Shown: in pieces, positions 11,825-45,741 of the stretch
Numbering within the stretch: position 1 is the stretch's first letter
Layout of the letters: each line of letters starts with the position of its first letter
NCBI GenBank assembly: GCA_038087015.1
Contig: JASBNA010000112.1
Coordinates: forward strand, 1-64,000
Length of the DNA stretch: 64,000 bases
Origin: Cerrena zonata
Lineage: Eukaryota > Basidiomycota > Agaricomycetes > Polyporales > Cerrenaceae
Reading direction: 5' to 3'
Notes under the pieces: generated by a model
Told to the model about the DNA's origin: nothing
What the model saw: only the letters and a program-made list of their open reading frames with translations
Database searches by the model: none
Made by a program: the position numbers and the translations under genes

Positions 11825-11964
11825 CAGTCTAATTTTTTTTTTTCTTTTCTCTTTTCTGCTTGTCTGATTCTTCTTATTCGTCTTTATTGGTCTTTATCTT
11901 TCTTTATCTTATCCGTCAATTCGAATTTATAGGAGCTGGTACAAAAGAGGTGGAAGTATATATA

Positions 11965-14526
11965 ATGCCTTTGATATCCAAGGAAGAGAAACAACGTCTC
12001 TTGAAAGACTTGAAACCTTTAGAAAATCATCAAAGAAATCGTGATAATCAACTAATCAATAATATCTTACCATCTTACCATATGTTTGAGTCTACTATTC
12101 TGAAAAGTATGACCCCTTCTGATGAAAACTACCGGGTCGATCCTCCAGTTTATGAAGTGACTCCAGTCTCTTCTAATGTAAATACTCCTTCTCCATTATC
12201 GCCAATGCATTCAGCCAATGATGGCCATCCCCAAATGCCACCGAACAGCCTTGGTGGAATACGGTCCGATACGCCCTTATCAGATGGCTACCCTTTCCCA
12301 AACCTTCAATCAAACCCTTCTTCTATTAATGTGCAAGGTTCTGATTTACAGCCACAAAATTCAACTACTAATTCAGTTCTTTCAACTTTTAATGAAGAAC
12401 TGGCAGAAATTTGGGAAAATACCGTTTTGGCCAATGCCCATAAACTACCCAATCTCTCTGATTCTGATAATGGCTTTTCAAAAAATTTAAAACTTGACAT
12501 TAAAGTTACTGAATCCGTTTGTCAAAAGGGAGAAGAACCAACTATAATTGATCCTCAACAATACGAGTATAAACAGGGGGATTACATTCATGGTTATGTA
12601 ACTATTCAAAATACTTCTTCTGAACCAATACCCTTTGATATGGTTTATGTGGTATTTGAAGGTGCTCTTGTTGTTTTAGACAATAACATGGGGTTGATTG
12701 ATAGTCAGCATCCTTTAACTGTTTATAAATTTTTGAATATGCTTGATCTTTTCGCCTCCTGGTCTTATGCTAATATCGATCGTTTGGTTACCGATAATGG
12801 AGATCCTCATGATTGGTGTTTAGATGAAATCGATCCTTATGATAATACCGCTTTATCAATTGATGTTAAGCGATTTTTCCAACCAAATATAACTTATAAA
12901 AGATTTTTCTCTTTTAGAATCCCAGAAAAATTATTAGATGACTCTTGTGAAGTTCATAATTTTACAAAACATACCGAAATCCCTCCAAGTATTGGTGTTC
13001 TGAGAAATTTAACTTCAATTCCTTTAATGTATTTATCAAATACTGCCGATAAGAATGATCGTAAGTTGAAAGATTTTTCCTTTATTGATACTTATATCAA
13101 TTATAGTGTTGATGCTAGAATAATTGGTAAAGCTTCAGAGTATAAATTTAAACCGAAAAGACCTTCAAAATTTAGAGATCAATACGTTATTGCTAAAGAA
13201 CTTCAATGTCCAATAAGAGTTATTCCAAATGCTTATCGTACAATTGATCAAATTGGTTCTAAAAATGAACAAGTTAGTTTGTTCTATCGTGCTTTTGTCG
13301 ATAGTATTAAAAATAAAATTTCTTATGGTATGGAATCTTTAGCTAATATTGATTCAAATAGACAAGTTATTTCCCCTTGGGATTCTTCAAATAATAGCAA
13401 TTCAACTCCAAATACTACCATGGATGACTTAAACACTAGTTTTTCATCATTAACCCCTCATTCATCATCAAATACTAGATTAAAACAATTATACGTGGTG
13501 GCTGACCATACTAATAAAGAAAATTTTAAAAAACAATTTAAAAAATTGCATCTTCAACGCTCTGAAAATAAAACCAACAACTCTAGTGGGTTAAATGATA
13601 ATGATTACGATGATAACGTGTATCAATACTTAACTCCTTACAAAAAAAAATCATTAACTGGTTCAACTAAAGTTATGGGAGTACTTTCCTTAACTACCCC
13701 AAAACAAGAATATACTACCCTCTATGTACCACCCATAAAATTTAGAAATCCCAATCAAAATTATGATACCAACTTATCAATACCTTTAGAAGTTGCATTT
13801 TTCTATGAACATGGGAATATCAAAGGTAAAAATAGTCCTCCAGAAATTAAAAATATCGATTGCGAATTAGTGGTACTTACCTTAAGATCTAAAAAACACG
13901 CTATTCCAGTCGAATTTAACCATGAAATGTGCTTCAAGGATAAAGTTATAATAAGTAGTGATAATGATGGTCACTCAACTAACATCCTCCTGAATTTTGC
14001 ATCTAATCATAATAAAAAAGATCCTGATACAAATAACTTTGATCAGATTGTCATTAAACCAATGCAAGATTATTATAAACAGATTTCTGACTTGATCAAA
14101 AAATTTGGCGAAGACCCAACTTTCAGAGTCGAAAGTCAATTATTCAAAGATTTGAAAGCTTTAGCCTTTTTACAATCAAAATATATCAATCTACCAATCT
14201 CCGATGTCAAATTTTATTCTCAAACTCAATCAAATCGTGGTGTTTATACAAATTTTTCAAATATTCCTTGGGATCATAGTAAATCAGAAACTAACGTAAA
14301 CTATTCAATTTATCAAAAGAAATTCGATATTGCAATTGACTTATCAAAATGCCATCCAAAGGGAACAGAACCCCTTAAAAATGGCAAATCTTGTTTCGAT
14401 AACTTTACTCTTGTTCCTAGTTTCCAAAATTGTCTCATGGCTAGATTCTACTACATCAAAGTTAACGTCAAAATGATTAATGGTGCCATTCTCACCTTGA
14501 ATGTTCCTTTGAATATCGAAAACTAA
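11965..14526 (+). CDS. Bul1-family arrestin-like adaptor of Rsp5 ubiquitin ligase, paralogue A
   Basis: 853 aa from the first ATG; the open frame reaches back to 11860 only through a TTG. Bul1-type proteins bind the HECT ligase Rsp5 through a PPxY motif and direct ubiquitylation and endocytic sorting of permeases. Here the PY motif is PPVY at residues 60-63, after a conserved ILPSYxMxxSTI block. The arrestin-like N domain includes QGDYIHGYVTIQN and FLNMLDLFASWSY, and the C-terminal Bul domain ends FTLVPSFQNCLMARFYYIKV. CTG at codon 46 aligns with Ser in both paralogues downstream. It is divergent from ECM38 and in tandem with paralogue B 0.9 kb away. Confidence 0.85.
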   Translation: MPLISKEEKQRLLKDLKPLENHQRNRDNQLINNILPSYHMFESTILKSMTPSDENYRVDPPVYEVTPVSSNVNTPSPLSPMHSANDGHPQMPPNSLGGIRSDTPLSDGYPFPNLQSNPSSINVQGSDLQPQNSTTNSVLSTFNEELAEIWENTVLANAHKLPNLSDSDNGFSKNLKLDIKVTESVCQKGEEPTIIDPQQYEYKQGDYIHGYVTIQNTSSEPIPFDMVYVVFEGALVVLDNNMGLIDSQHPLTVYKFLNMLDLFASWSYANIDRLVTDNGDPHDWCLDEIDPYDNTALSIDVKRFFQPNITYKRFFSFRIPEKLLDDSCEVHNFTKHTEIPPSIGVLRNLTSIPLMYLSNTADKNDRKLKDFSFIDTYINYSVDARIIGKASEYKFKPKRPSKFRDQYVIAKELQCPIRVIPNAYRTIDQIGSKNEQVSLFYRAFVDSIKNKISYGMESLANIDSNRQVISPWDSSNNSNSTPNTTMDDLNTSFSSLTPHSSSNTRLKQLYVVADHTNKENFKKQFKKLHLQRSENKTNNSSGLNDNDYDDNVYQYLTPYKKKSLTGSTKVMGVLSLTTPKQEYTTLYVPPIKFRNPNQNYDTNLSIPLEVAFFYEHGNIKGKNSPPEIKNIDCELVVLTLRSKKHAIPVEFNHEMCFKDKVIISSDNDGHSTNILLNFASNHNKKDPDTNNFDQIVIKPMQDYYKQISDLIKKFGEDPTFRVESQLFKDLKALAFLQSKYINLPISDVKFYSQTQSNRGVYTNFSNIPWDHSKSETNVNYSIYQKKFDIAIDLSKCHPKGTEPLKNGKSCFDNFTLVPSFQNCLMARFYYIKVNVKMINGAILTLNVPLNIEN

Positions 14527-15429: not shown

Positions 15430-18034
15430 ATGAATAACCGTGGCTCAAATAGGTTCAACTTGAAGCTATCACATCTTTCACTTGATGACGGAAACCTGGA
15501 TAATCCAGTTCCTGCTTATGAAACGATCGATAATTTTACAAGCCCACTGTCTAAAAATGATCAAAAAAAGAAAGATGAAGAAGAAATCATCAATATATTA
15601 CCTTCTTATCAAATGTATCAGTCTACCATCTCAAAAAATATCACCCCATCTACTGAAGACTTAAGAACAGAACCTCCGCGCTATGAACTAACTCCACAAG
15701 CTTCTCAAGTTTCAACAGGCGGTTCTAGTGGTGAATATTTTGCCAGTGGTGGATCCGGTACATCTTTCCCAAGCTCCCCCGATCTTCCTTCTTCAAGGCG
15801 TCCATTTGAAACATCTCCTCATGATGATACAGTGGATGATTTCACTCGTTGGGAAGATACAATTTTGGCTAACTCCCATAAATTGAAAAGGCTCCCTTCT
15901 ATTAATAAAGAGGTTTCAAGATTAATTACCGTAAAGATTCATCTTACTGAACATATCGGTAAAATTGGTATTCCTCCCAATATACTAGACCCTTTGTCGG
16001 TGGAGTTCAAACAAGGTGATTGCATTTATGGATTTGTTACTGTAACAAATAATACTGAAAACCCCATTCCCTTTGATATGTTTAGTGTTGTTTTAGAAGG
16101 ATCCATAACATTTGGTGACAATCACCTCTCCACAATGAATCAACAGCCTCAAATGAGAAAATTTCTCAACATGTTTGATTTTAATGCATCTTGGAATGAT
16201 GGATGTTTGGATCGTTTGACTACAGATCATAATAACCCTCATTTCATTTATGGAAATATTATAGATCCAATCGATGGAACCTACACTCAGTTAGATCATC
16301 GTAAAATTTTCGAACCTTATAAAACATACAAAAAATTTTTCACTTTTAGACTTCCTGAAAAACTACTTGATAGTTCTTGTGAACATGGATTTGTGAAACA
16401 TCTTCAAATACCCCAAACATTGGGAACCTCTAAAAATGAAATTATAAGCAATTTACGTCAGAAATGGAAAGACGGTAATTATGATTCGCATTCATACTCA
16501 CATTCACATTTACATTCGAACCCCCTTTCTCAAACTCATTCACGTACGAATTCCCATACCAATTCCGCTGTTACTTCTCCAGCTTTATCTCCTTATCAAT
16601 CACCTAGTCATTCAACATTACCTTCCACTAACAACTCATCTGATCACTTATCAGCACTTCCTAGTAAAGTTGATGAACTAATGAAGCATGAATCCCATAA
16701 ACAAAAGCAAAAATACTCTTCAATAACTCAGGATTTTGCTTTCCCTGATGCCTCTATATCTTACTGTATTGGAGCCAGAGTCATTGGGAAAGCTTCGGAA
16801 TATGAAAGCTTATTTATGAAAAATTCTCATCCTCATCTTAACCCTGAACATGATGAATACGTTGTTGCAAATGAAGATAATGCATATCTTCGAGCTATTT
16901 TTACTACTCATTCTTCATTCGAGCTCAATAGATCTATGATTAATGAAGAAGCCAGGTTAATTTATGCTAATATGGTAAACAAGATTAATAATAAAATTGC
17001 TTTGGGTAGAGAATTATCATCTCGTCCTAGCGATGAAAGGACACCTTACAGTTCTGAAGGCAACTCTCTTCACAGTTCATCTTCGTTTTCATCACTCCAT
17101 CCAACACTGAGCGGTGCTGAATTATCAAAGATGCAACAGTCTTATTATACTAAGATAAGAAATTTGGATAGAGAAACTCATGCAGATCACCGAGAAAATG
17201 TTTATGAGGTTTTTTTACCTTATAAAAAGAAAACTATTATCGGATCCTCAAAAGTGATTGGTCTCGCTGCATTATCAACCCCTAAGACAGAATATATGAT
17301 AAATTATTTCCCATTACCCCAGTTTCGAAACCCTGAGGGTCCATTACCAAATACAAAAGTCACCATTCCTTTTGATTTGACTTTTCTTTATACGGATGGT
17401 CATCATCACACCGTTCCTGATTTCCGTAAAATATCAGTAGAGTTGGTTGCCCTCACCATCAAATCTAGAAGTATACCTATTCCAGTTGTGTTCCATCCAG
17501 ATATGTTGTTTGAAAATAAAAGTAGAGGAATCGATAATTTTGACATGGTTACAATTAAAAAGTTTCAAAAATACGCTGGTGAACTCTCTAAACTTATGAA
17601 GGAAGTAGGACCTGAGTCTCTTGAATTAGATAGAGATATTTTCCTTGATATTAAATCTTTGGCTAATCTTGCCTCTAAGTATGATCATCTCAAAATTCCC
17701 TAATTGCTCTGTTTCGAAGCCTCACTCTCATGATTGCGTATCTCATTTGAATCAGTTGGATTGGGAAACCGAATCAATCAAAACCACCGGTCATAATGGA
17801 GCTATTGAAGAGCAGTTAAAATTCAGTAAAAAATTTGATCTTCATGTCGATATTAAAGACGCTGTTTTGAATGGCCCTACGCCCCATGATTTCTGCCTTG
17901 TTCCAGATTTCCAATATTGCTTGATGTCCAGATTGTATTACTTGAAAGTTGATCTCAAATGCCCTAATGGAGATAAAGTGACTATTAAGATTCCACTTGT
18001 TTTGCAACGTCAAAGACAGCTAAGCGAAGAGTGA
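15430..18034 (+). CDS. Bul1-family Rsp5 adaptor, paralogue B (frame broken once)
   Basis: Frame 1 runs from ATG 15430 to a TAA at 17701-17703. The conserved C-terminal Bul domain (HDFCLVPDFQYCLMSRLYYL) continues in the +1 frame to 18034, giving about 867 aa in total. The PY motif is PPRY at residues 82-85. The arrestin-like core has QGDCIYGFVTVTN and FLNMFDFNASWND. A His/Ser-rich insertion (about residues 353-380) is unique to this copy. The break can be resolved by one surplus C in CCC at 17698-17700. Since the downstream frame is conserved over 110 codons, I read this as one functional gene with a sequence error rather than a pseudogene, though a recent mutation is possible. Confidence 0.75.
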
Positions 18035-18360: not shown

Positions 18361-19510
18361 ATGGATGAATTAATATCAGAATGGGATAGAAGGAGATACA
18401 TACCTAAACCTGGTGAACCAGATTTGCCTCCACAATTATCTGATATGGCTGAAAAAACATCTGAAGATATCATGAAGGAGTTAAATCGTTTACCATTTTT
18501 CATGACAGAACTTGATGAAACAGACGGAGATGGTGGTGAAAATACAAATTTGGAAGCCTTGAAAAGTTTAGCATACGATGGAGAGCCCGATGAAATCGCC
18601 ACAAACTTCAAAAATCAAGGTAATGACTGTTTCAAAGCTAAACAATATAAGAATGCTATCACATACTACACTCAAGGTATTGAAGTGGAACACAACGTTA
18701 CTTCCTTAAAAGTTGCATTGCTTGTAAATAGAGCTGCTTGTAATTTGGAATTGAAAAATTTCAGAAGATGTATAGAAGATTGCAAACAAGTTTTATTATT
18801 AGATGATAAGAATGTGAAAGCTTGTTATAGATCCGGTAAAGCCTTCTTAGCAGTTTCAAGATTTGAAGAAGCAAAAGCCATTTTAGAATATGGTTTGGCA
18901 ATTGATCCAGAAAACAAACCAATGAAAGATACTTTGGACCAAACAATCAAGAAACAAAAGCAAATTAATGATGCCATAGAACGTAAAGAGCGTGAGGACT
19001 AAAGAAGCCGAGATGAAGAAGACGATTTTGGTCAATGCTGTTAAATTGAGACACATGCGTGTTTTAAAAGCTTCTAGACCTGCTGAACTACTCGAAGAAG
19101 CTGAAATACGATTGGAAGATCCCCTTGACCATGAATCCCAATTAATATTCCCAGCCATGATATTATATCCTACTATTGATGAGTTTGATTTTGTTGCAGA
19201 AATCAGTGAATTATCTACTCCTCAAGAAATTTTAGAATTAATAATGAATAGACCTAAAGAATGGTTTGAAAATCCAAAACATAAGAGTTTTGCTCTTGTC
19301 AAAAAACTTCAATGCTTTATGGAAACAGAAGCAGGTGGCTTGGTGAAGATTGGTAAGAATGCTCCAATAAACAATGCTTTGATGTCTGACAAAGCCAAGG
19401 CCCCTCTTTTTGATAATGCATTGAGATTATACGTTGTTCCAAAAGACGACGTTGAAGGTTGGTTGAAAACCTGGAATAAAGAGGCTGCTTTGAAGAAACG
19501 TAATTTATAA
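18361..19510 (+). CDS. CNS1: Cns1 TPR co-chaperone of Hsp90/Hsp70 (frame broken once)
   Basis: Two abutting frames together give about 382 aa, matching the length of budding-yeast Cns1 (385 aa). The N-terminal part holds a three-TPR domain at about residues 80-200 (NFKNQGNDCFKAKQYKNAI, LLVNRAACNLELKNFRRCI, VKACYRSGKAFLAVSRFEEA). The C-terminal wheel domain, ending WLKTWNKEAALKKRNL, is in the +1 frame. The first frame stops at TAA 19000-19002. Removing one base, for example from GG at 18996-18997, restores a lysine/glutamate-rich linker. Family knowledge: Cns1 is essential, binds the Hsp90 C-terminus and supports eEF2 folding, so a real null allele is unlikely. Confidence 0.85.
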
Positions 19511-23961: not shown

Positions 23962-26538
23962 ATGAAATTTTTTGGGCTTGCGAATAATCAAAAGAAACCC
24001 GTTAGATCATCTACTCCCCTGCTGTCATCTAGTGCTTCATCGAATGTTAATTCGACAGCAAACCGTGAAGATACAAACATCCATAATCTATCTTTGAATG
24101 ATCAAAATGAAAAACCCAGAGACATTAGAAATACCATAAGTGATGATATGACGCTTCAGCCGTTGGTATCACCAGCCTATGAAGATGTCCCCATGTGGAA
24201 TATCCTTCCCTCTTATCAATTGTATCAATCAACTTTTTCTAAAAACATTCGACCTTCAGATGAAGATAGGAGAACCAAGCCTCCCACTTATGAAACTTCT
24301 TCTCCTTTAGAATCTCCCAATTATGCCGCAGGCCCCCCCGGGGCCGGTGCCGGGTCTTACTTTCCTTCGATTGAAAGCTCAGGCGAATCATCAGAAGCTT
24401 CTAGCGAACAACTCACTCCTCAGGATACAAGTCTTCAAGAGCATTTACAATCGCATCCCTTTGATGGTTTGACTAATCCTCCTTCTCCTCCTCCTCCTCC
24501 CCACATTAGTGAAGATGATAATCCAACCCGTTGGGAAAATAGTATTTTGGCAAATACTCACCGCATGAAAAAATTAGTTGATGTTCATAGTAGTATTTCA
24601 AATAAGTTGAAAATTGATATTCAAAATACGGATAAACCTTGTCAAAGAGGGGTTAAACCAACTATAATAGACACTCAACAGTATGAATATCAACAGGGAG
24701 ATTCCGTTCATGGGTTTATCACCGTGGTTAACACGTCTGATGAACCATTACCCTTTGATATGCTTTCGGTTGTCTTTGAAGGGAAAGTTTCCGTAATGGG
24801 AGAATCCGCCGACCTGAGACGCCCAATTGTTTTTTTCAAATTCTTAAACATGTTTGATTATTCTGCATCTTGGACCCCGGTTGATTTTGATGATTCAATT
24901 GTCTCGGGTATAGATGCTATTGATCCAATTGATAACTCTCATCTTCGGTTCAACGTCGAAAAAGTGATTCAGCCAAAAGTTGTTTATAAGAAATTCTTCA
25001 ATTTTACAATCCCAGAAAGATTATTAGATTGTGCTTGTGAATTTCATAATTTATCAAGTCATTGTGAGGCTCAACCTACCATTGGTTTAGAACGTGATGA
25101 ATTCTTGAAAAAATTACGTAAAATAAGAGAAAGTAATAGTAAAAAAGGAACTACTCAGAATAGTGCCAATTCAAGTAAAGTTGATTTTCAAATTGCTCCT
25201 AGTACTCCACAACCATCTCCTCATAGAAGAAAACAAGGCCTTAATGGGATTTTTAATAAGCGTATTAAAGATTTATCCTTCCCAGATACTGCTCTTAGTT
25301 ATAGTGTTGAAGCTAGAATTATTAGTAAAACAACCGACTATGAAAAATATTTCCCCTCAGCCAAAGAAAAGGAAGAATTTATCATTGTTAATGAAGCTAG
25401 TTCTTTTGTAAGAGTTATACCTCATGAAAGAATCAGTATGGCTCTTGATCCAGTTGCTTTAAAACGTGATTCCGAATTGATTTATAAAAATCTTATTACT
25501 AGAATTAAAGATAAAATTGAATTAGGTAATGAGTTATTAAATGCAAGTGGCTACAATATAGCGCCAATAGCGTCTAAATCCCCTTCACCCACTCCTTCAC
25601 CAAATACTAATCTAGCAAGAACTCCTTCCACCGTCAAGAGAAGACAATTATATGAACCAGAGGCTTTCAGATCTTATCATATCTCTGAAACTCACCAACG
25701 TTATTTTGATTCTTCCGAATATGAAATGTTTCTTCCCTTTAAAAAGAAAACCATTGGTTCTCCTCCCAAAATTATCGGTATATTAGGGGCTAAAACCCCA
25801 AAAGTTGATTATATCATAAAATACACTCCTCCGTACAATATGAAACCTTTCAACGGTAAAGATAATAAACAACTACCAACCAAAATCGACGTTCCAATTG
25901 AAATTAGCTTCAAATATAGTGGTGATGTGCATTCCAAAAGTCATAGACCACCAGAAATAAAATCAGTTTCTGCAGAATTAGTTGTGGCAACATACAGATC
26001 GAAAAAATTCCCTATTCCAATTGAAATCATGAACGATTTGAAATTCAGAAATATCGCCAATGAAAATGATAATTTGGAAACTTACGTTATTAACCCTTTC
26101 AAAAAATATGTTGATGAAATTTCCCGCGTCACTAGTTTCTTGGGTTCAGAAGTTCTCAACATTGATAGTCAGTTCATCATGGATATCAAAGCTTTGGCAA
26201 ATCTTTCTGTGAAATACAATAATTTAAAATTTGACCATGTCAAATCTCAATGTAAACAAGGTTTGGCAAATTGGGGCCAACCAACTACTGTTATGAATGA
26301 GACAAAAAATCAAGAAACAATGTACCACAAGTCAATGATTGTATCAGTTGACATTGAAAACTTACTACTCAGAGATAGTTCGGGTTCCAGTGAAGATTTA
26401 AGTTCTGACTCCTATGCTTTGGTTCCTAATTTCCAAAGTTGCATTATTGGTAGATACTACTACTTGAAAATTCAAATTAAACTCCACAATCACGATTCCA
26501 TGTTCGTCAAAGTCCCTGTCACCATTCGTAAATTATAA
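23962..26538 (+). CDS. Bul1-family Rsp5 adaptor, paralogue C
   Basis: 858 aa, intact. The conserved ILPSYQLYQSTFSKNIRPSD block leads to the PY motif PPTY at residues 107-110, then a proline- and serine-rich linker. The arrestin-like core includes QGDSVHGFITVVN and FLNMFDYSASW, and the C-terminal Bul domain is YALVPNFQSCIIGRYYYLKI. A pair of CTG codons in the N-terminal Ser-rich run fits decoding as Ser. It is separated from paralogues A and B by CNS1 and SLI15, so the family expanded locally. Substrate permeases cannot be told from sequence. Confidence 0.85.
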   Translation: MKFFGLANNQKKPVRSSTPLLSSSASSNVNSTANREDTNIHNLSLNDQNEKPRDIRNTISDDMTLQPLVSPAYEDVPMWNILPSYQLYQSTFSKNIRPSDEDRRTKPPTYETSSPLESPNYAAGPPGAGAGSYFPSIESSGESSEASSEQLTPQDTSLQEHLQSHPFDGLTNPPSPPPPPHISEDDNPTRWENSILANTHRMKKLVDVHSSISNKLKIDIQNTDKPCQRGVKPTIIDTQQYEYQQGDSVHGFITVVNTSDEPLPFDMLSVVFEGKVSVMGESADLRRPIVFFKFLNMFDYSASWTPVDFDDSIVSGIDAIDPIDNSHLRFNVEKVIQPKVVYKKFFNFTIPERLLDCACEFHNLSSHCEAQPTIGLERDEFLKKLRKIRESNSKKGTTQNSANSSKVDFQIAPSTPQPSPHRRKQGLNGIFNKRIKDLSFPDTALSYSVEARIISKTTDYEKYFPSAKEKEEFIIVNEASSFVRVIPHERISMALDPVALKRDSELIYKNLITRIKDKIELGNELLNASGYNIAPIASKSPSPTPSPNTNLARTPSTVKRRQLYEPEAFRSYHISETHQRYFDSSEYEMFLPFKKKTIGSPPKIIGILGAKTPKVDYIIKYTPPYNMKPFNGKDNKQLPTKIDVPIEISFKYSGDVHSKSHRPPEIKSVSAELVVATYRSKKFPIPIEIMNDLKFRNIANENDNLETYVINPFKKYVDEISRVTSFLGSEVLNIDSQFIMDIKALANLSVKYNNLKFDHVKSQCKQGLANWGQPTTVMNETKNQETMYHKSMIVSVDIENLLLRDSSGSSEDLSSDSYALVPNFQSCIIGRYYYLKIQIKLHNHDSMFVKVPVTIRKL

Positions 26539-28417: not shown

Positions 28418-28941
28418 GATTATATGTATAAGAAGTGAAGTTCATGTACAAAGGAAAATAGCTGAAAAAATCGATGGGCTCACATAAATTCTCCATTTTG
28501 TTACATAATCTCAACACAAGAAAATGGTTTTACTCAAAAGAAGACTCCATATATCCAAGACCACCTATGGAACAGCTCAGTTCTCTCCTTAGCACTGTGA
28601 AGATACTATTCGGACTACTTAAAATACTTTTGTATGTGATCAAAACCTCAAGGTATATTACAAGTTTCTTCTCGTCATTCTTTATTTAGATAGCTATATC
28701 ATAAAGTTCGCTCCAGAATCATCGACTACTCAAGTTCCAAATCTCTATCTCGAACATAAGGGATACGGTGTTTGAAGTAAGATGCAAAGACCATACTTTT
28801 ACTAAAGCGAAGTAAACCTCCATACCCCAATGTAGTGTAATCAACAAATTTCCAGACAAATCAATTCTCATTAGTTTTCAAAGCTTTTCACCAGGCCATA
28901 AACCTCTCTTCTTTCATTGAACCAATAGAATCAAGCTCAAG
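28418..28941. other. Intergenic region between SDE2 and the truncated TUF1 copy
   Basis: About 520 bp. An open frame at 28474-28689 (71 codons) has no recognisable product. No conserved element stands out. Confidence 0.4.
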
Positions 28942-29268
28942 ATGTTTAAAAATCTCTCCGGTGCTTTCCGTTTATCTAGTCATTCTATCGCAAAAGCTCG
29001 TCCAAGTTTGGTCAGAACTTATGCTGATTTCGACCGTTCTAAACCTCATGTTTATATTGGTACTATTGGTCATGACGATCAAGGCAAAACCACTTTAACT
29101 GCCGCTATTACCAAAGTTTTAGCAGAAAAAGGTGGTGCCGACTCCTTGGATTATGGTTCTATCGATAAAGCCCCAAAAGAAAGAACCAGGGGTAAAGCCA
29201 TTTCTTCTGCTCCCGTTGAATATGAAACTGACAAAAGGCACTATTCCCATGTTAATATAAGTCACTAG
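28942..29268 (+). pseudogene. Truncated, decayed TUF1 copy (N-terminal GTPase fragment only)
   Basis: A 108-codon frame whose first 105 residues align without gaps to the intact TUF1 N-terminus at 30208 (81 identical by my count). The mitochondrial presequence-like start is kept, but GTPase motifs are damaged: the G1 loop reads GHDDQGKTT instead of GHVDHGKTT, and the G2 element RGITIS reads RGKAIS. Similarity ends at HVN, where intact TUF1 has HVD followed by the intein; three unrelated residues and a TAG follow. It cannot be a working EF-Tu. It may be a relic or an expressed targeting peptide; I favour a relic. Confidence 0.75.
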
Positions 29269-30207: not shown

Positions 30208-31970
30208 ATGTTTAAAAGCTTCTCTGGTGCTTTACGTCTTGGTGGACGTACTATCACTAAGGCTCGTCCAACTTTGGCAAGATCTTATGCTGCCTTTGAC
30301 CGTTCCAAACCTCATGTTAATGTTGGTACCATTGGTCATGTTGATCACGGTAAAACCACTTTAACTGCCGCTATTACTAAAGTTTTAGCTGAAAAAGGTG
30401 GTGCCGATTTCTTGGATTACGGCTCCATCGATAAAGCTCCAGAAGAAAGAGCCAGAGGTATCACTATTTCTTCTGCTCACGTTGAATATGAAACTGATAA
30501 AAGACATTATGCTCACGTTGATTGTCTCAGTGAAGATATGAGAATTTTAACTGACCAAGGTTACTTATACCTTGATCAAGTTCAAAAAGACTTTGTTGAT
30601 CTCAAAATTGCTCAATACAATCGTGATACTAAAGAAATTGAATATGTTGCTGGTGAAGAATTTATCTTAAAAGAAGCTGCTAACCATAAAATGGTTGAAT
30701 TCACTAACCAAGATGGTGTTTCTTTACTTGTTACCGAAGGTCATGATATGTTTGTTCAAACCGGTGAAGCTCCTCACGATAAAGTTAAAGCTAAAGCTTT
30801 AGTCAACGAATCTAAACCAGTTAATATGATCAAAGTTGCTGAATCCGGTGCTCAATCATCCACTGTTCTCTCTGCTTCCCAAGAAATCAAAGCTGTTAAC
30901 GATTACCAAGGCCGTGTTTGGTGTGTTCGTGTTCCATCAGGTTTAATTGTTGCTCAAAGAGTTCTTGGTGAATCTGTTTCTGAATCTGTTATCATTGGTA
31001 ACTGTCCAGGTCACGCCTGACTATATTAAAAATATGATTACTGGTGCTGCTCAAATGGATGGTGCTATTATTGTTGTTGCTGCTTCTGATGGTCAAATGC
31101 CTCAAACTAGAGAACATTTATTATTAGCTAGACAAGTTGGTGTTCAAAACTTAGTTGTCTTCGTTAACAAAGGTCGATGCTGTTGATGATCCAGAAATGT
31201 TGGAATTAGTCGAAATGGAAATGAGAGAATTATTGACTCAATACGGTTTCGATGGTGATAACACTCCAGTTATCATGGGTTCTGCTTTATGTGCTTTGGA
31301 AAACAAACAACCAGAAATTGGTGTCCAATCCATTGAAAAATTATTAGACGCTGTCGATGAACACATTCCAACCCCTCAACGTGATTTAGAACAATCTTTT
31401 GTTTTACCAATTGAAGATGTTTTCTCCATCTCCGGTAGAGGTACTGTCGTTACTGGTAGAGTTGAAAGAGGTAGTTTAAAGAAGGGTGAAGAAGTTGAAA
31501 TCGTTGGTGGTTTCGACAAACCATTCAAAACTACTGTTACCGGTATTGAAATGTTCAAAAAAGATTTAGATTCTGCTATGGCTGGTGATAACTGTGGTAT
31601 CTTATTAAGAGGTGTTAGAAGAGACCAACTTCACCGTGGTATGGTTCTTGCCAAACCAAACACCATTACTTCCCACACTAAAATCTTGGCTTCATTATAT
31701 ATCTTATCTAAAGAAGAAGGTGGCCGTCACTCTCCATTCAGTGAACACTACAAACCTCAATTATTCGTTAGAACTACCGATGTTACCGGTTCTTTAAGTT
31801 TCCCACCAGGTGAAGGTGTTGATCACTCTCAACAAGTCATGCCAGGTGACAACGTCGAAATGATTATTGACTTCATTAGAAAAACTCCAATTGAAGTTAA
31901 CCAACGTTTCAACATTAGAGAAGGTGGTAGAACTGTCGGTACCGGTTTAGTCACCAGAATTATTGAATAA
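30208..31970 (+). CDS. TUF1: Mitochondrial elongation factor Tu, interrupted by a mini-intein (two frame breaks)
   Basis: Without the intein the product is about 426 aa, close to yeast Tuf1 (437 aa). Delivers aminoacyl-tRNA to the mitochondrial ribosome. The presequence is rich in Arg and Ser. G1 GHVDHGKT is at 43-50 and G2 RGITIS at 83-88. The G3 motif DCPGH is split between Asp105 and Cys by the intein (30523-31002). G4 is NKVD. Domains 2 and 3 are intact to [13 protein letters not shown]. As given, the frame breaks twice, each +1: at GCC-TGA 31015-31020 (surplus C or T) and at AAA-GGT near 31172 (surplus G). Both sites are fixed by homology. The remaining sequence is highly conserved, so I take it as a live gene with sequence errors, with a decaying gene as the alternative. 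Confidence 0.85.
30523..31002 (+). mobile_element. Mini-intein (Hint domain, 160 aa) in TUF1
   Basis: An in-frame 480-bp insertion between Asp and Cys of DCPGH. Block A begins with Cys1 ([20 protein letters not shown]). Block B is [11 protein letters not shown] with the TxxH signature (Thr71, His74). Block F is [17 protein letters not shown], with Cys where many inteins have Asp. Block G is VIIGN, giving a terminal Asn160 but Gly instead of the usual penultimate His. The +1 residue is the host's own Cys, the expected splice nucleophile. At 160 aa there is no room for a homing endonuclease. It has no intron signals, and its codon use matches the host gene, suggesting long residence. Splicing is inferred, not shown. 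Confidence 0.85.
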
Positions 31971-41634: not shown

Positions 41635-44600
41635 CTAAGAAAAGAAGTATTGTGAGTTCTTAACTTCAGCAACATCAAATTGTCCTTTTGGTGGTATTTC
41701 TGGGAAATTCAATGGTACCAAAACTTGAATAGACTTATTAGACGATTTACATATTAAATCTTCTATATTTTTGCCTTCACAAACACTAATTGTAGTAACC
41801 ATCTCCTTACCCATTTCGACCTCTTTTGGATCCGATGATGAAAGTAATTGGCGTCTTTTATTTTCTAAATACATTTCATCTGAAAATGTAAGCCCCCTAC
41901 CTAAATTTTTGACAATACTTCTTCTAACACTTCTGATTTCTTTAGCAAGGTCACTATCATTCTTGATATATGCAACCTGTAAAAATCCTTTATAACGGTG
42001 TTCAAATTCGTCCTTCAATTTGGTAACTAAATTATCTTGATGCAATTTGACAAATTGATTTCTTATATGATAATTCATCGTATCCACGTCTGACGCATGT
42101 GTCCAATAAGAATCATGGACTGAAGCAAAATTTAAATTATCATCACCACAAGCTTTAGAGGTCATTAACATATGGGTTGCATCTAAAGAGTGGACGAAGT
42201 TAGGAGGAAATGCTGTTTGTTGTCTTCTTGCATCAACTTGACTACCACTAAATGGATCATGAATTGAAATGTCTTGTAAATTTGTTCTGATAAGTTGAGT
42301 CTTTAAAACTCTATATGGTTGCACACATGGTAAACCTAATGGTGTCGTCCAAATAACCGAAGATGAATGATTTGGTTTGTTTGCTTCGTTATCTTGATTT
42401 GAAAAGGTGTCAAGACGAACTGATTTACTGATTCGTTTAGCAGCTTCAGCCAACCAATCTTGAATTAAATGGGCACCTTCGAATAATTCCCTCACAGAGT
42501 CAAAAACTAGAGATGTCAAATATTTGGTGAATTTTTTGGCCTTTTCATCTTCATCTTTACCAAAATGATGAATAACTTGTTTTTTGATTTGAGCAAGAGC
42601 ACCAACAAAGGTGACACCATAAACATTGGTCATAACAGTTTGTTTAACTACTTTTCTCGTAATTTTGTCTTCGAAGAAAATTGCCATTTCGTTTCCTGCT
42701 TCAGCATCAGCTTTAACTCTTTTGATGACTAATCCAGCAACATAAGTATAAACATCTTGAGGTCTATCAGCTGGTTTCAAATTCACTTGGCGTGCACCTT
42801 CAACATCACCACCTAAAGCTGCATAATGTTGAAGACCATTACAGGTACCATCTTGATGTACTGGGAAGTGAGATACAAATTTAGTTGGATCTTCTAAAGT
42901 ATAAGCTTCAGCAAGTTCATAACAAATACCTAAAATTTGCCAGGGTTTATCACCTTTAATCCACCATTGGTTTTGATAAGGATCTTTGGCAACTGCTTTG
43001 ATATTTTCCATGTTTTTATTAGCGAATTCAATTCTATCTTTTAATGGAACTTTATCATAACCGTAAACGTTCGATAAATGTATCTTTAACCAATCCAATC
43101 CTTTTTCTCCAACTTCTTTCCCATTCCAGAATAAGAAAAGAGAACGAGTTAAATCATTCCCTAAATGATTTAAATGAGGAGAAAGTGGATAAGCTCTACC
43201 TCTAAAATCAATGTTATGAGGGAAAAAGAGCTTTTCACCTAAAAATCCTCTAGCGATTTCTAACTTGTAATTGGTATCACATCTTTGAGAATTCATAGCA
43301 GAGGCTTCTAATACTGCTTGCTTGAGTTTCTTTTGGTATTCTTTTTTAGCTTCGGGTTCAGCATTGAAAGCAACCGGTTCCGGGTATTTAATCTCTTCAC
43401 TTACTGGGGGTATATCCAAAAATTGTTTCCCGGTATTCCAGTAATGAGTAATAACTTCAAAAACTTTGCGATTGATAGTCCATGGTGTTTCACCTAAAAC
43501 GTTCAAACCATCATAAACCCCACTGATACGATTAGACGATGCTTTTAAATACGCTAAGGTTTCAGAAGAATCTTTCGTTCTAATTAAGCCAGTTTGAGAA
43601 TATAAATAACCACCATTATTGTGACCACACCAAGGACGAGGACTGACCTAACATTGGAAGTAACTGTGGTTGCACAGAGTTTTCAACAGATCTACTGCCT
43701 AATTGACGAATCAAGCTTTTATGAAGTTTTAATACACCTAATTTTTGTCCCATGATGAATTGGTAAGTATGATGGAATGCTGGTTGTAATGCTTTCACAG
43801 TTTTACCAGTAGTTGGATCAGTACCGGTGACGGGAATTTTGGCAATGTGAACTAATAAAGAAGTCAATACACCACCAACCTTAACATGGATAGGAGCATC
43901 CCACTCCCTAGAAGCACCTGGATCTCTTGACAGATAATCTCTTTGTCTTATTAACTTTTTCCACTCATTGGCATTTCTTTTCTTTTTGGAAAAAGACTTA
44001 CCTTCTTGTTGAACCAAACTTTGGGATCTATATTCCAATTCGATAGCTTTACCAACAGACACCACAGCTCTACCAATCCTCATACCATCAATAATACCAC
44101 CGGTTGAGTTCAATTTCAACAACTCCAAAATGGTTATAACGGTCATTTTCTCTGGAGGAACAAGGACAAAAAACGGGGGCATAAAATGATCTATCTTCAG
44201 TTGTATTTAATGCACTTTTACGTTTTTCCTGTCCTTCAAAAGAATTTTCATTGATGATGCTTTGACATTTCTGATATTCTTCTTGTACTAAAGGTAACAA
44301 TTCTTTATACCAAACATATAATTGAGAATTTAAACTTTTATCTAAAGGAACACTACCGCCTCTTTTCTGCAATTCTTCGAATTCATGTTGCCATCTACCT
44401 CTAGCAGCATCGAGCCCCTTTGCTTCTAATGCACGTTCTCTTATTTCGTTAAAACTATCCAAAGCTTCATTGAATCTCGAGCGTATTTGCTCATCTTTGA
44501 TTGATTTGTTTATTTCAAAGAAATCAGTTCTTGTATTTGAAGGTTTGATGACATTAGTATCAGCTTCGGCATAAAAATTTTTAATGAAATTGTCTAACTC

Positions 44601-45585
44601 TTGGCTTTGTTCATTCGATTGTAAACCTAATAAGGTATGTCTGATAACTCTCAACCCGAAAGCATCTACTGATTTCAACGTCTCTGCATCCTTCTCTAAA
44701 ATAGGAACTTCACCTCCTTCATCGGTGAAATAATCTGGTAATTCGTTGAACAGATCAGCACTAAAATTTGCATTGTCTTTATTGGATTCAAGGCTTTGTC
44801 TTGTTTGTTTAAACATTTGAATCAAATCTCTAGGTACGTGAACTTCGGATAAAATATTATCTTGAAAGATAGTAGTTAATGCATCAGCACCCAAAACATC
44901 TATATGATTCAAAGTTTTTCTTGTAAGATAGACGTCTTTCTTTATTGAGTGTAAAAGTTTTTCGTAATCTTCATGCTGTTGGCTTTTCAACGACTTTTGC
45001 TAAAAATATAGCGTATGTACGATCGTTGGTAAAATTTTCACCATATCTAGATTCTAACTGTCTGACATACTGTTTCATCTCCAGAAAGGAAATGTTTTCA
45101 TGTTCACCCCAGGCCTCTAAGTACTTATTTAATGAAAAGATGAAGTGGTCTATGGAGTTTGATAATGGATAGATAGCTCTTAATATACTATCTGCACGGT
45201 CAAAATTCCCACTGGCTATTAAGGCATCGAGTAAAGACTGCAAATGGTAGATGTCTTTTGCAAATCTAGCCCTTGAGACAGGATCGTAATCTGAAGTCCA
45301 AGCAGTATCAGTAGCTTGACTTTTAAATTGATCCAATGAGTCTGCATTTATATCATTGAAGGCTCTTAAATAAGTCTTGGGTTCTTTTTCCAGGGGACCT
45401 TGATCTTTGTTCGACTTCAAGCGTTCTAGGAACCCATCATAAACAGATGAAAACCCATTCTTGTCTTCGTTTGGAGTCACTGATGTAGAATATCTCACTT
45501 GGGACCTTATTGATGAAGCAGATTGACAAACATATTTCCTAGTCAACTCCCTTATTTTCCCGTTTTTCGAAACTTGTCTAAACAT
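41635..45585 (-). CDS. RPO41: Mitochondrial RNA polymerase (frame broken three times)
   Basis: About 1315 aa across four frame segments in order on the minus strand. T7-phage-type single-subunit polymerase that transcribes mitochondrial DNA. The start chosen is ATG 45585 (MFRQVSKNGKIRELTRKYVC, a plausible presequence); the frame reaches 45624 only through TTG. Catalytic motifs in the last segment are intact: DFRGRAYPLSPHLN, HQDGTCNGLQHYAALGGD (motif A), KVVKQTVMTNVYGVTFVGA (motif B) and SVHDSYWTHASD (motif C). The breaks are all +1: near the run at 44984-44987, the G5 at 44175-44179 and CC at 43647-43648. Each disappears if one homopolymer base is removed, restoring FYAPFFVLVPPEK and MLVSPRPWCGHNNGGY. 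Confidence 0.9.
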
Positions 45586-45741
45586 ACTCGTTTTCGTAGT
45601 ACAATCGCCTAAGGAAGAGATCAAAGTATCAAGTTATTAAGTGAAAAATCGGTATTCTTTAGTATAAGATGAACTGACTTTAAGAAAGAGAAACGAAAGG
45701 AAAAAAAAAAAAAAAAAATTTACTGCATCTCACTAACAAAA

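Follow-up and report, generated by a model that had tools for sequence, protein, structure and literature searches.

The TUF1 locus and its insert

The DNA analyzed here (the window) is a stretch of 64,000 nt, positions 1 to 64,000 of the forward strand of contig JASBNA010000112.1 in an assembly deposited as Cerrena zonata (GCA_038087015.1), and it carries TUF1, the nuclear gene for mitochondrial elongation factor Tu (EF-Tu). An open reading frame (ORF) at 30208-31020 translates as the beginning of EF-Tu (MFKS...HYAHVD), followed by 160 additional aa and then by CPGHA. The insert (30523..31002) measures 480 bp, is in frame and has no stop codon, and it separates Asp from Cys in DCPGH, the G3 motif; a sequence-only reading of the window had given this 160-codon insertion the same boundaries, which are exact. 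The features are listed below; the alignment referred to there holds 12 inteins, two rows of which (the window copy and P0122) are near-identical.

30208..30522, + strand: TUF1 N-extein, from the start codon to Asp of DCPGH (NCBIfam EF-Tu profile TIGR00485, E 4e-41)
30523..31002, + strand: predicted mini-intein, 160 aa, without endonuclease domain (TIGR01445, relatives, AlphaFold2 (AF2) model, structure matches)
30523..30525, + strand: Cys1, N-terminal nucleophile (block A), the same in all 12 inteins of the alignment
30530..31009, + strand: GT-AG stretch of 480 nt, removal of which gives the DCLSH of protein P0002 (window sequence compared with P0002)
30733..30744, + strand: block B, TxxH (T71 E G H74), from the alignment
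30856..30867, + strand: approximate spot at which some relatives have a LAGLIDADG-type insert and the window copy none, from the alignment
30910..30960, + strand: block with GRVWCV and VP-x-GLI, both invariant in 12 of 12
30997..31002, + strand: C-terminal Gly-Asn of the intein, present in 12 of 12
31003..31014, + strand: CPGH, the first C-extein codons, with Cys as +1 nucleophile (translation and alignment)
31003..31970, + strand: TUF1 C-extein, with two +1 frameshifts in the assembly (frames intact in P0002 and P0122)

The splicing residues named in the sequence-only reading (Cys1, TxxH, the VWCV block, the terminal Asn and the +1 Cys of the host) are all present and line up with those of the relatives; in block B, H74 is kept in every row and T71 in 11, with Ser in P0129. 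The insertion site is conserved, as had been proposed, D[C/A/T]PGH being uninterrupted in 110 of 120 EF-Tu relatives (the best 120 of 8000 scored). An in-frame insert at a conserved site is combined here with Cys1, TxxH, a C-terminal Asn, a +1 Cys and a predicted Hint fold. It is not a full-length homing intein, as the alignment reveals no LAGLIDADG endonuclease region in the 160 aa.

Evidence for a mini-intein, and other readings of the insert

In all likelihood nuclear TUF1 contains a mini-intein of class 1 type, the reading that best accommodates profile, fold, relatives and residue conservation and the one that had been proposed for the G3 motif. A profile search, suggested earlier as a check, gave a divided outcome: the NCBIfam model TIGR01445 (intein_Nterm) matches above its cut-off (27.5 bits against 24.5, E 4.7e-6), starting at intein position 1, but the Pfam Hint model does not reach its own. 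An AF2 model of the intein built with its relatives has a predicted local distance difference test score (pLDDT) of 92.6, and its best structural matches are intein structures.

Several observations weigh against this reading. The Pfam Hint match is weak (15.5 bits, cut-off 29.7, E 0.014), AF2 without relatives gave a poor model (pLDDT 34), which was not used, and a PDB sequence search with the intein alone returned no match. A first protein search with the intein alone as query also found nothing, because candidates were restricted to proteins of 0.55-1.75 times the query length; the relatives were found with the full-length query and the region set to the intein. The penultimate intein residue is Gly rather than the usual His, and the Ceu ClpP intein, which likewise ends in Gly-Asn, is reported to have spliced poorly in E. 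coli. Finally, the C-extein in the window contains two +1 frameshifts, near 31015-31020 (with a TGA stop) and 31165-31175. Gly-Asn ends are among those reported for ThrRS (threonyl-tRNA synthetase) and Ceu ClpP inteins (PMC1635734).

Other searches added little. In a profile search of the PDB with alignment A1, made from the whole protein, the best 60 of 189 rows show EF-Tu and, in last place, one ThrRS chain, and are uninformative on the intein; scans with the splicing-domain alignment gave 22 pattern stretches in viral genomes and 37 in prokaryote genomes, with no confirmed relative among either.

The frameshifts, together with a second EF-Tu gene on contig C2 of the assembly, would fit a dead intein in a pseudogene of this strain, which we consider unlikely. 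The frame is intact in P0002 and in P0122, a protein from another source in which the whole 586-aa precursor is open and the intein 99% identical to that of the window; the window frameshifts are therefore probably assembly errors. Further genes are broken like TUF1, namely an RPO41-like gene (41635-45624, - strand) and a CNS1-like gene (18361-19510, + strand), each split over several frames and named from its translation, and THS1 on contig C79, which also looks broken, a pattern indicative of assembly errors of the indel type. The EF-Tu gene on C2 is 44-53% identical, lies in several pieces in a region of 47% GC (guanine plus cytosine), and probably belongs to another organism in a mixed assembly. 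Programmed frameshifting was rejected, P0122 being read without a shift.

The best EF-Tu relative, P0002 from H. burtonii NRRL Y-1933 (99% identity in an alignment covering 40% of the query), is 426 aa long and reads HVDCLSHADY, in which CLS corresponds to the first three intein residues. Because cutting 480 nt, from the GT at 30530 to the AG at 31009, yields exactly this junction, the insert is very probably present in that type strain too and, as judged from the protein record, annotated as an intron. A spliceosomal intron that takes the 480 nt out of the mRNA, as this record implies, could also draw on P0026, P0028 and the frame-shifted P0071, the open frames of which run out here, as read from the protein letters, in a way that suggests that the Asp codon of these relatives is split by a true intron. 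However, its removal would leave DCLSH for DCPGH, so that the G3 glycine is lost and the motif destroyed rather than function restored. The donor would be GTGAAG instead of a consensus donor, there is no TACTAAC, and the closest branch point with one mismatch is 303 nt away from the acceptor. The window contains four matches to canonical intron patterns, all of them outside the insert. Nor would an intron need to be open, in frame and folded like an intein, and we judge it very improbable.

The open frame would also allow the insert to be kept in EF-Tu as an extra, unspliced domain, but this would break the nucleotide-contact motif, and the catalytic splicing residues are conserved; such a domain is scarcely credible.

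Proposed splicing of the TUF1 precursor

As read from the anatomy of the mini-intein, the ribosome would make a 586-aa TUF1 precursor, Cys1 would start the N-S shift, and the +1 Cys of CPGH would take over the N-extein. Cyclization of Asn160 and ligation of the exteins would then restore HVDCPGHADY (spliced junction peptide HYAHVDCPGHADYIK) in an EF-Tu of 426 residues, its G3 motif unbroken, and mitochondrial translation would depend on this autocatalytic protein splicing. Because its endonuclease domain is gone, the intein would no longer home by itself; it probably persists since imprecise loss would ruin EF-Tu.

Related inteins and the state of their endonucleases

The intein region has 14 matches, 11 of which were examined (P0133-P0135, E 1e-4 to 0.2, were left out). 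Seven are EF-Tu proteins interrupted at the identical site: P0122, P0131 and five from Coemansia (P0123, P0125, P0127, P0128, P0132), a genus of the Kickxellomycotina. Three are ThrRS inteins (P0124, P0126, P0130) with the junctions MN|C...GN|CPGH, and P0129 is a LAGLIDADG-bearing intein followed by the host residues CDDVED.

The Coemansia and P0131 inteins share host and site with the window copy and are 51-55% identical to it in the splicing domain, but they are longer (290-455 aa) and have a LAGLIDADG region that looks full (P0132) or decayed. Between P0122 and two Coemansia records the exteins are 70% identical. The ThrRS inteins, from Candida metapsilosis (P0124), Candida maltosa (P0130) and P0126, resemble the TUF1 intein in the CLSED start, the Gly-Asn end and CPGH at +1 to +4, P0124 being 46% identical over the whole length; however, the host is not homologous to EF-Tu, and the -1 residue is Asn instead of Asp. 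The C. metapsilosis intein is given as 172 aa (PMC5056185). The fungal PRP8 and VMA1 inteins are far more distant (11% and 10% identity) and occupy other hosts and sites. Two of the public Coemansia records, P0125 and P0132, are named threonyl-tRNA synthetase although their sequence is EF-Tu with an intein, a name that probably comes from intein similarity.

In the alignment, by eye, both acidic LAGLIDADG motifs (LGDG, ADGD) are kept in P0132, P0129 and P0130, altered in P0131 and the other four Coemansia copies, and absent from P0124, P0126 and the window copy, that of H. burtonii. P0129 scores above the cut-off of Pfam LAGLIDADG_3 and P0132 below it, with no match reported for P0131 and P0123; for P0130 the motifs are taken from the alignment and not from a Pfam scan. 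Intact, altered and absent motifs of this kind correspond, as read from the alignment, to the stages expected of a homing cycle.

A further case is likely to be hidden in Ascoidea rubescens, the EF-Tu of which (P0073) has ASRPVIIGN before CPGHADY. This protein record has an apparent intein C-terminus at the same site as in TUF1, but the remainder of the presumed intein is not in the gene model.

A shared site and possible movement between genes

Inteins seldom colonize new genes, and the sites compared here hint at how they may jump from one gene to another. The EF-Tu and ThrRS inteins both directly precede CPGH in non-homologous hosts. A low-GC THS1-like gene on contig C79, presumably from the same yeast as TUF1, is 81% identical to C. 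metapsilosis ThrRS and uninterrupted at the intein site, as is a gene resembling mitochondrial ThrRS at C112:68693, on the contig of the window. The TUF1 flanks and the C79 gene have a 13-nt core in common, AT|TGTCCAGGTCA. In the 55.5 Mb assembly there are 14 occurrences of the 15-nt class RAYTGYCCNGGNCAY, against 7 for a reversed control; one of them, on contig C60, matches the joined TUF1 site at all 15 nt, is free of an intein, and reads in translation like eIF2-gamma.

We regard it as possible, at slightly less than an even chance, that one intein lineage moved between the ThrRS and EF-Tu genes, both of which encode (N/D)CPGH: its endonuclease would have recognized the 13-nt core ATTGTCCAGGTCA (present in the flanks of TUF1 and in the intein-free yeast THS1 of this assembly) and cut an ectopic site, and the intein would have been copied in. 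In an unrooted tree of the 12 rows, the window copy groups with P0129 (93/91) and falls on the side of the ThrRS inteins, separate from the Coemansia and P0131 copies (94/94); a topology uniting the eight EF-Tu inteins is not rejected (approximately unbiased test, p 0.09). Without P0129 the window copy is still on the ThrRS side (95/94), and the three ThrRS rows split from all eight EF-Tu rows (93/92); these trees have long branches and, being unrooted, do not settle the direction of transfer. Ectopic movement was suspected by Goodwin et al. (2006; PMC1635734) for the ThrRS and Cre RPB2 inteins, for which these authors saw no obvious flank similarity. If the proposal is true, CPGH and the 13-nt core would be the flank similarity not found in the other non-allelic pairs considered in that account.

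Two observations concern the site itself. In P0026, P0028 and P0071, from related yeasts, the open frame runs out at this Asp codon, and the protein letters look as though a GTATGT intron starts at that point, 1 nt away from the intein junction; if real, it would split a homing target. The EF-Tu of Candida parapsilosis (P0057) reads SDLPGHS, against VDCPGHA in nearly all others listed, and so is without the Cys required by the intein.

An upstream half copy of TUF1

28942..29268, + strand: half copy of the TUF1 5' part, a 108-codon open frame of which 105 codons are TUF1-like (DNA similarity 28913-29256)

This half copy is 81% identical to TUF1 in DNA over 28913-29256, and the similarity ends at the base corresponding to the intein insertion point; between it and TUF1 there is no further similarity to TUF1 or the intein. 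The ratio of nonsynonymous to synonymous divergence (dN/dS) is 0.24 (dN 0.12, dS 0.51, 105 codons), which is at odds with a long-dead copy, and the altered G1 (GHDDQGKT) and switch I residues are at odds with a clearly functional one, so that it fits neither. The half copy may be the scar of cutting at the intein site, or a remnant that stops at a former exon end; such a boundary could produce the same end point, since the Asp codon of relatives seems to contain an intron.

Literature and significance

The sequence-only reading had known of no intein in EF-Tu, and this stands for the literature: no report was found in the titles and abstracts of open-licence papers. It does not stand for sequence databases, where Coemansia EF-Tu entries carry same-site relatives. 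Two surveys give PRP8, VMA1, RNA polymerases, ThrRS, GLT, CHS and eIF5B as nuclear intein hosts, and "elongation factor" is absent from their main text (PMC5784728; PMC5056185).

The TUF1 case links protein splicing to a GTPase that must be imported into mitochondria, at a site also occupied in the EF-Tu of the very distant Coemansia. Related inteins also occupy two unrelated genes here, at sites that share a 13-nt core and the four residues that follow, and some relatives (P0132, P0129, P0130) have endonuclease motifs that look intact, so that the idea of ectopic cutting is directly testable. Hyphopichia P0002 and Ascoidea P0073 suggest that inteins can go unseen in gene models, where they are taken for introns, and eukaryotic inteins may therefore be undercounted.

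Assembly context and neighboring genes

The window has 35.5% GC and lies on a 71-kb contig of an assembly of 55.5 Mb in 171 contigs; the H. burtonii genome is given as 12.4, which we take to be in Mb (PMC5499181). A search of the assembly with the RPO41-like protein found three diverged homologous loci (C112, C91, C94). Diverged copies of usually single-copy genes (on C2, C91 and C94 compared with C112), together with differing GC, suggest that more than one fungus probably contributed to the assembly. Beyond the half copy and the EF-Tu gene on C2, a search of this probably mixed assembly showed no second TUF1. Elsewhere in the window, the ORFs at 11860-14526, 15430-17703 and 23962-26538 have, by eye, a common NILPSYxMYxSTISKxxxPS-like motif and apparently form a small local gene family.
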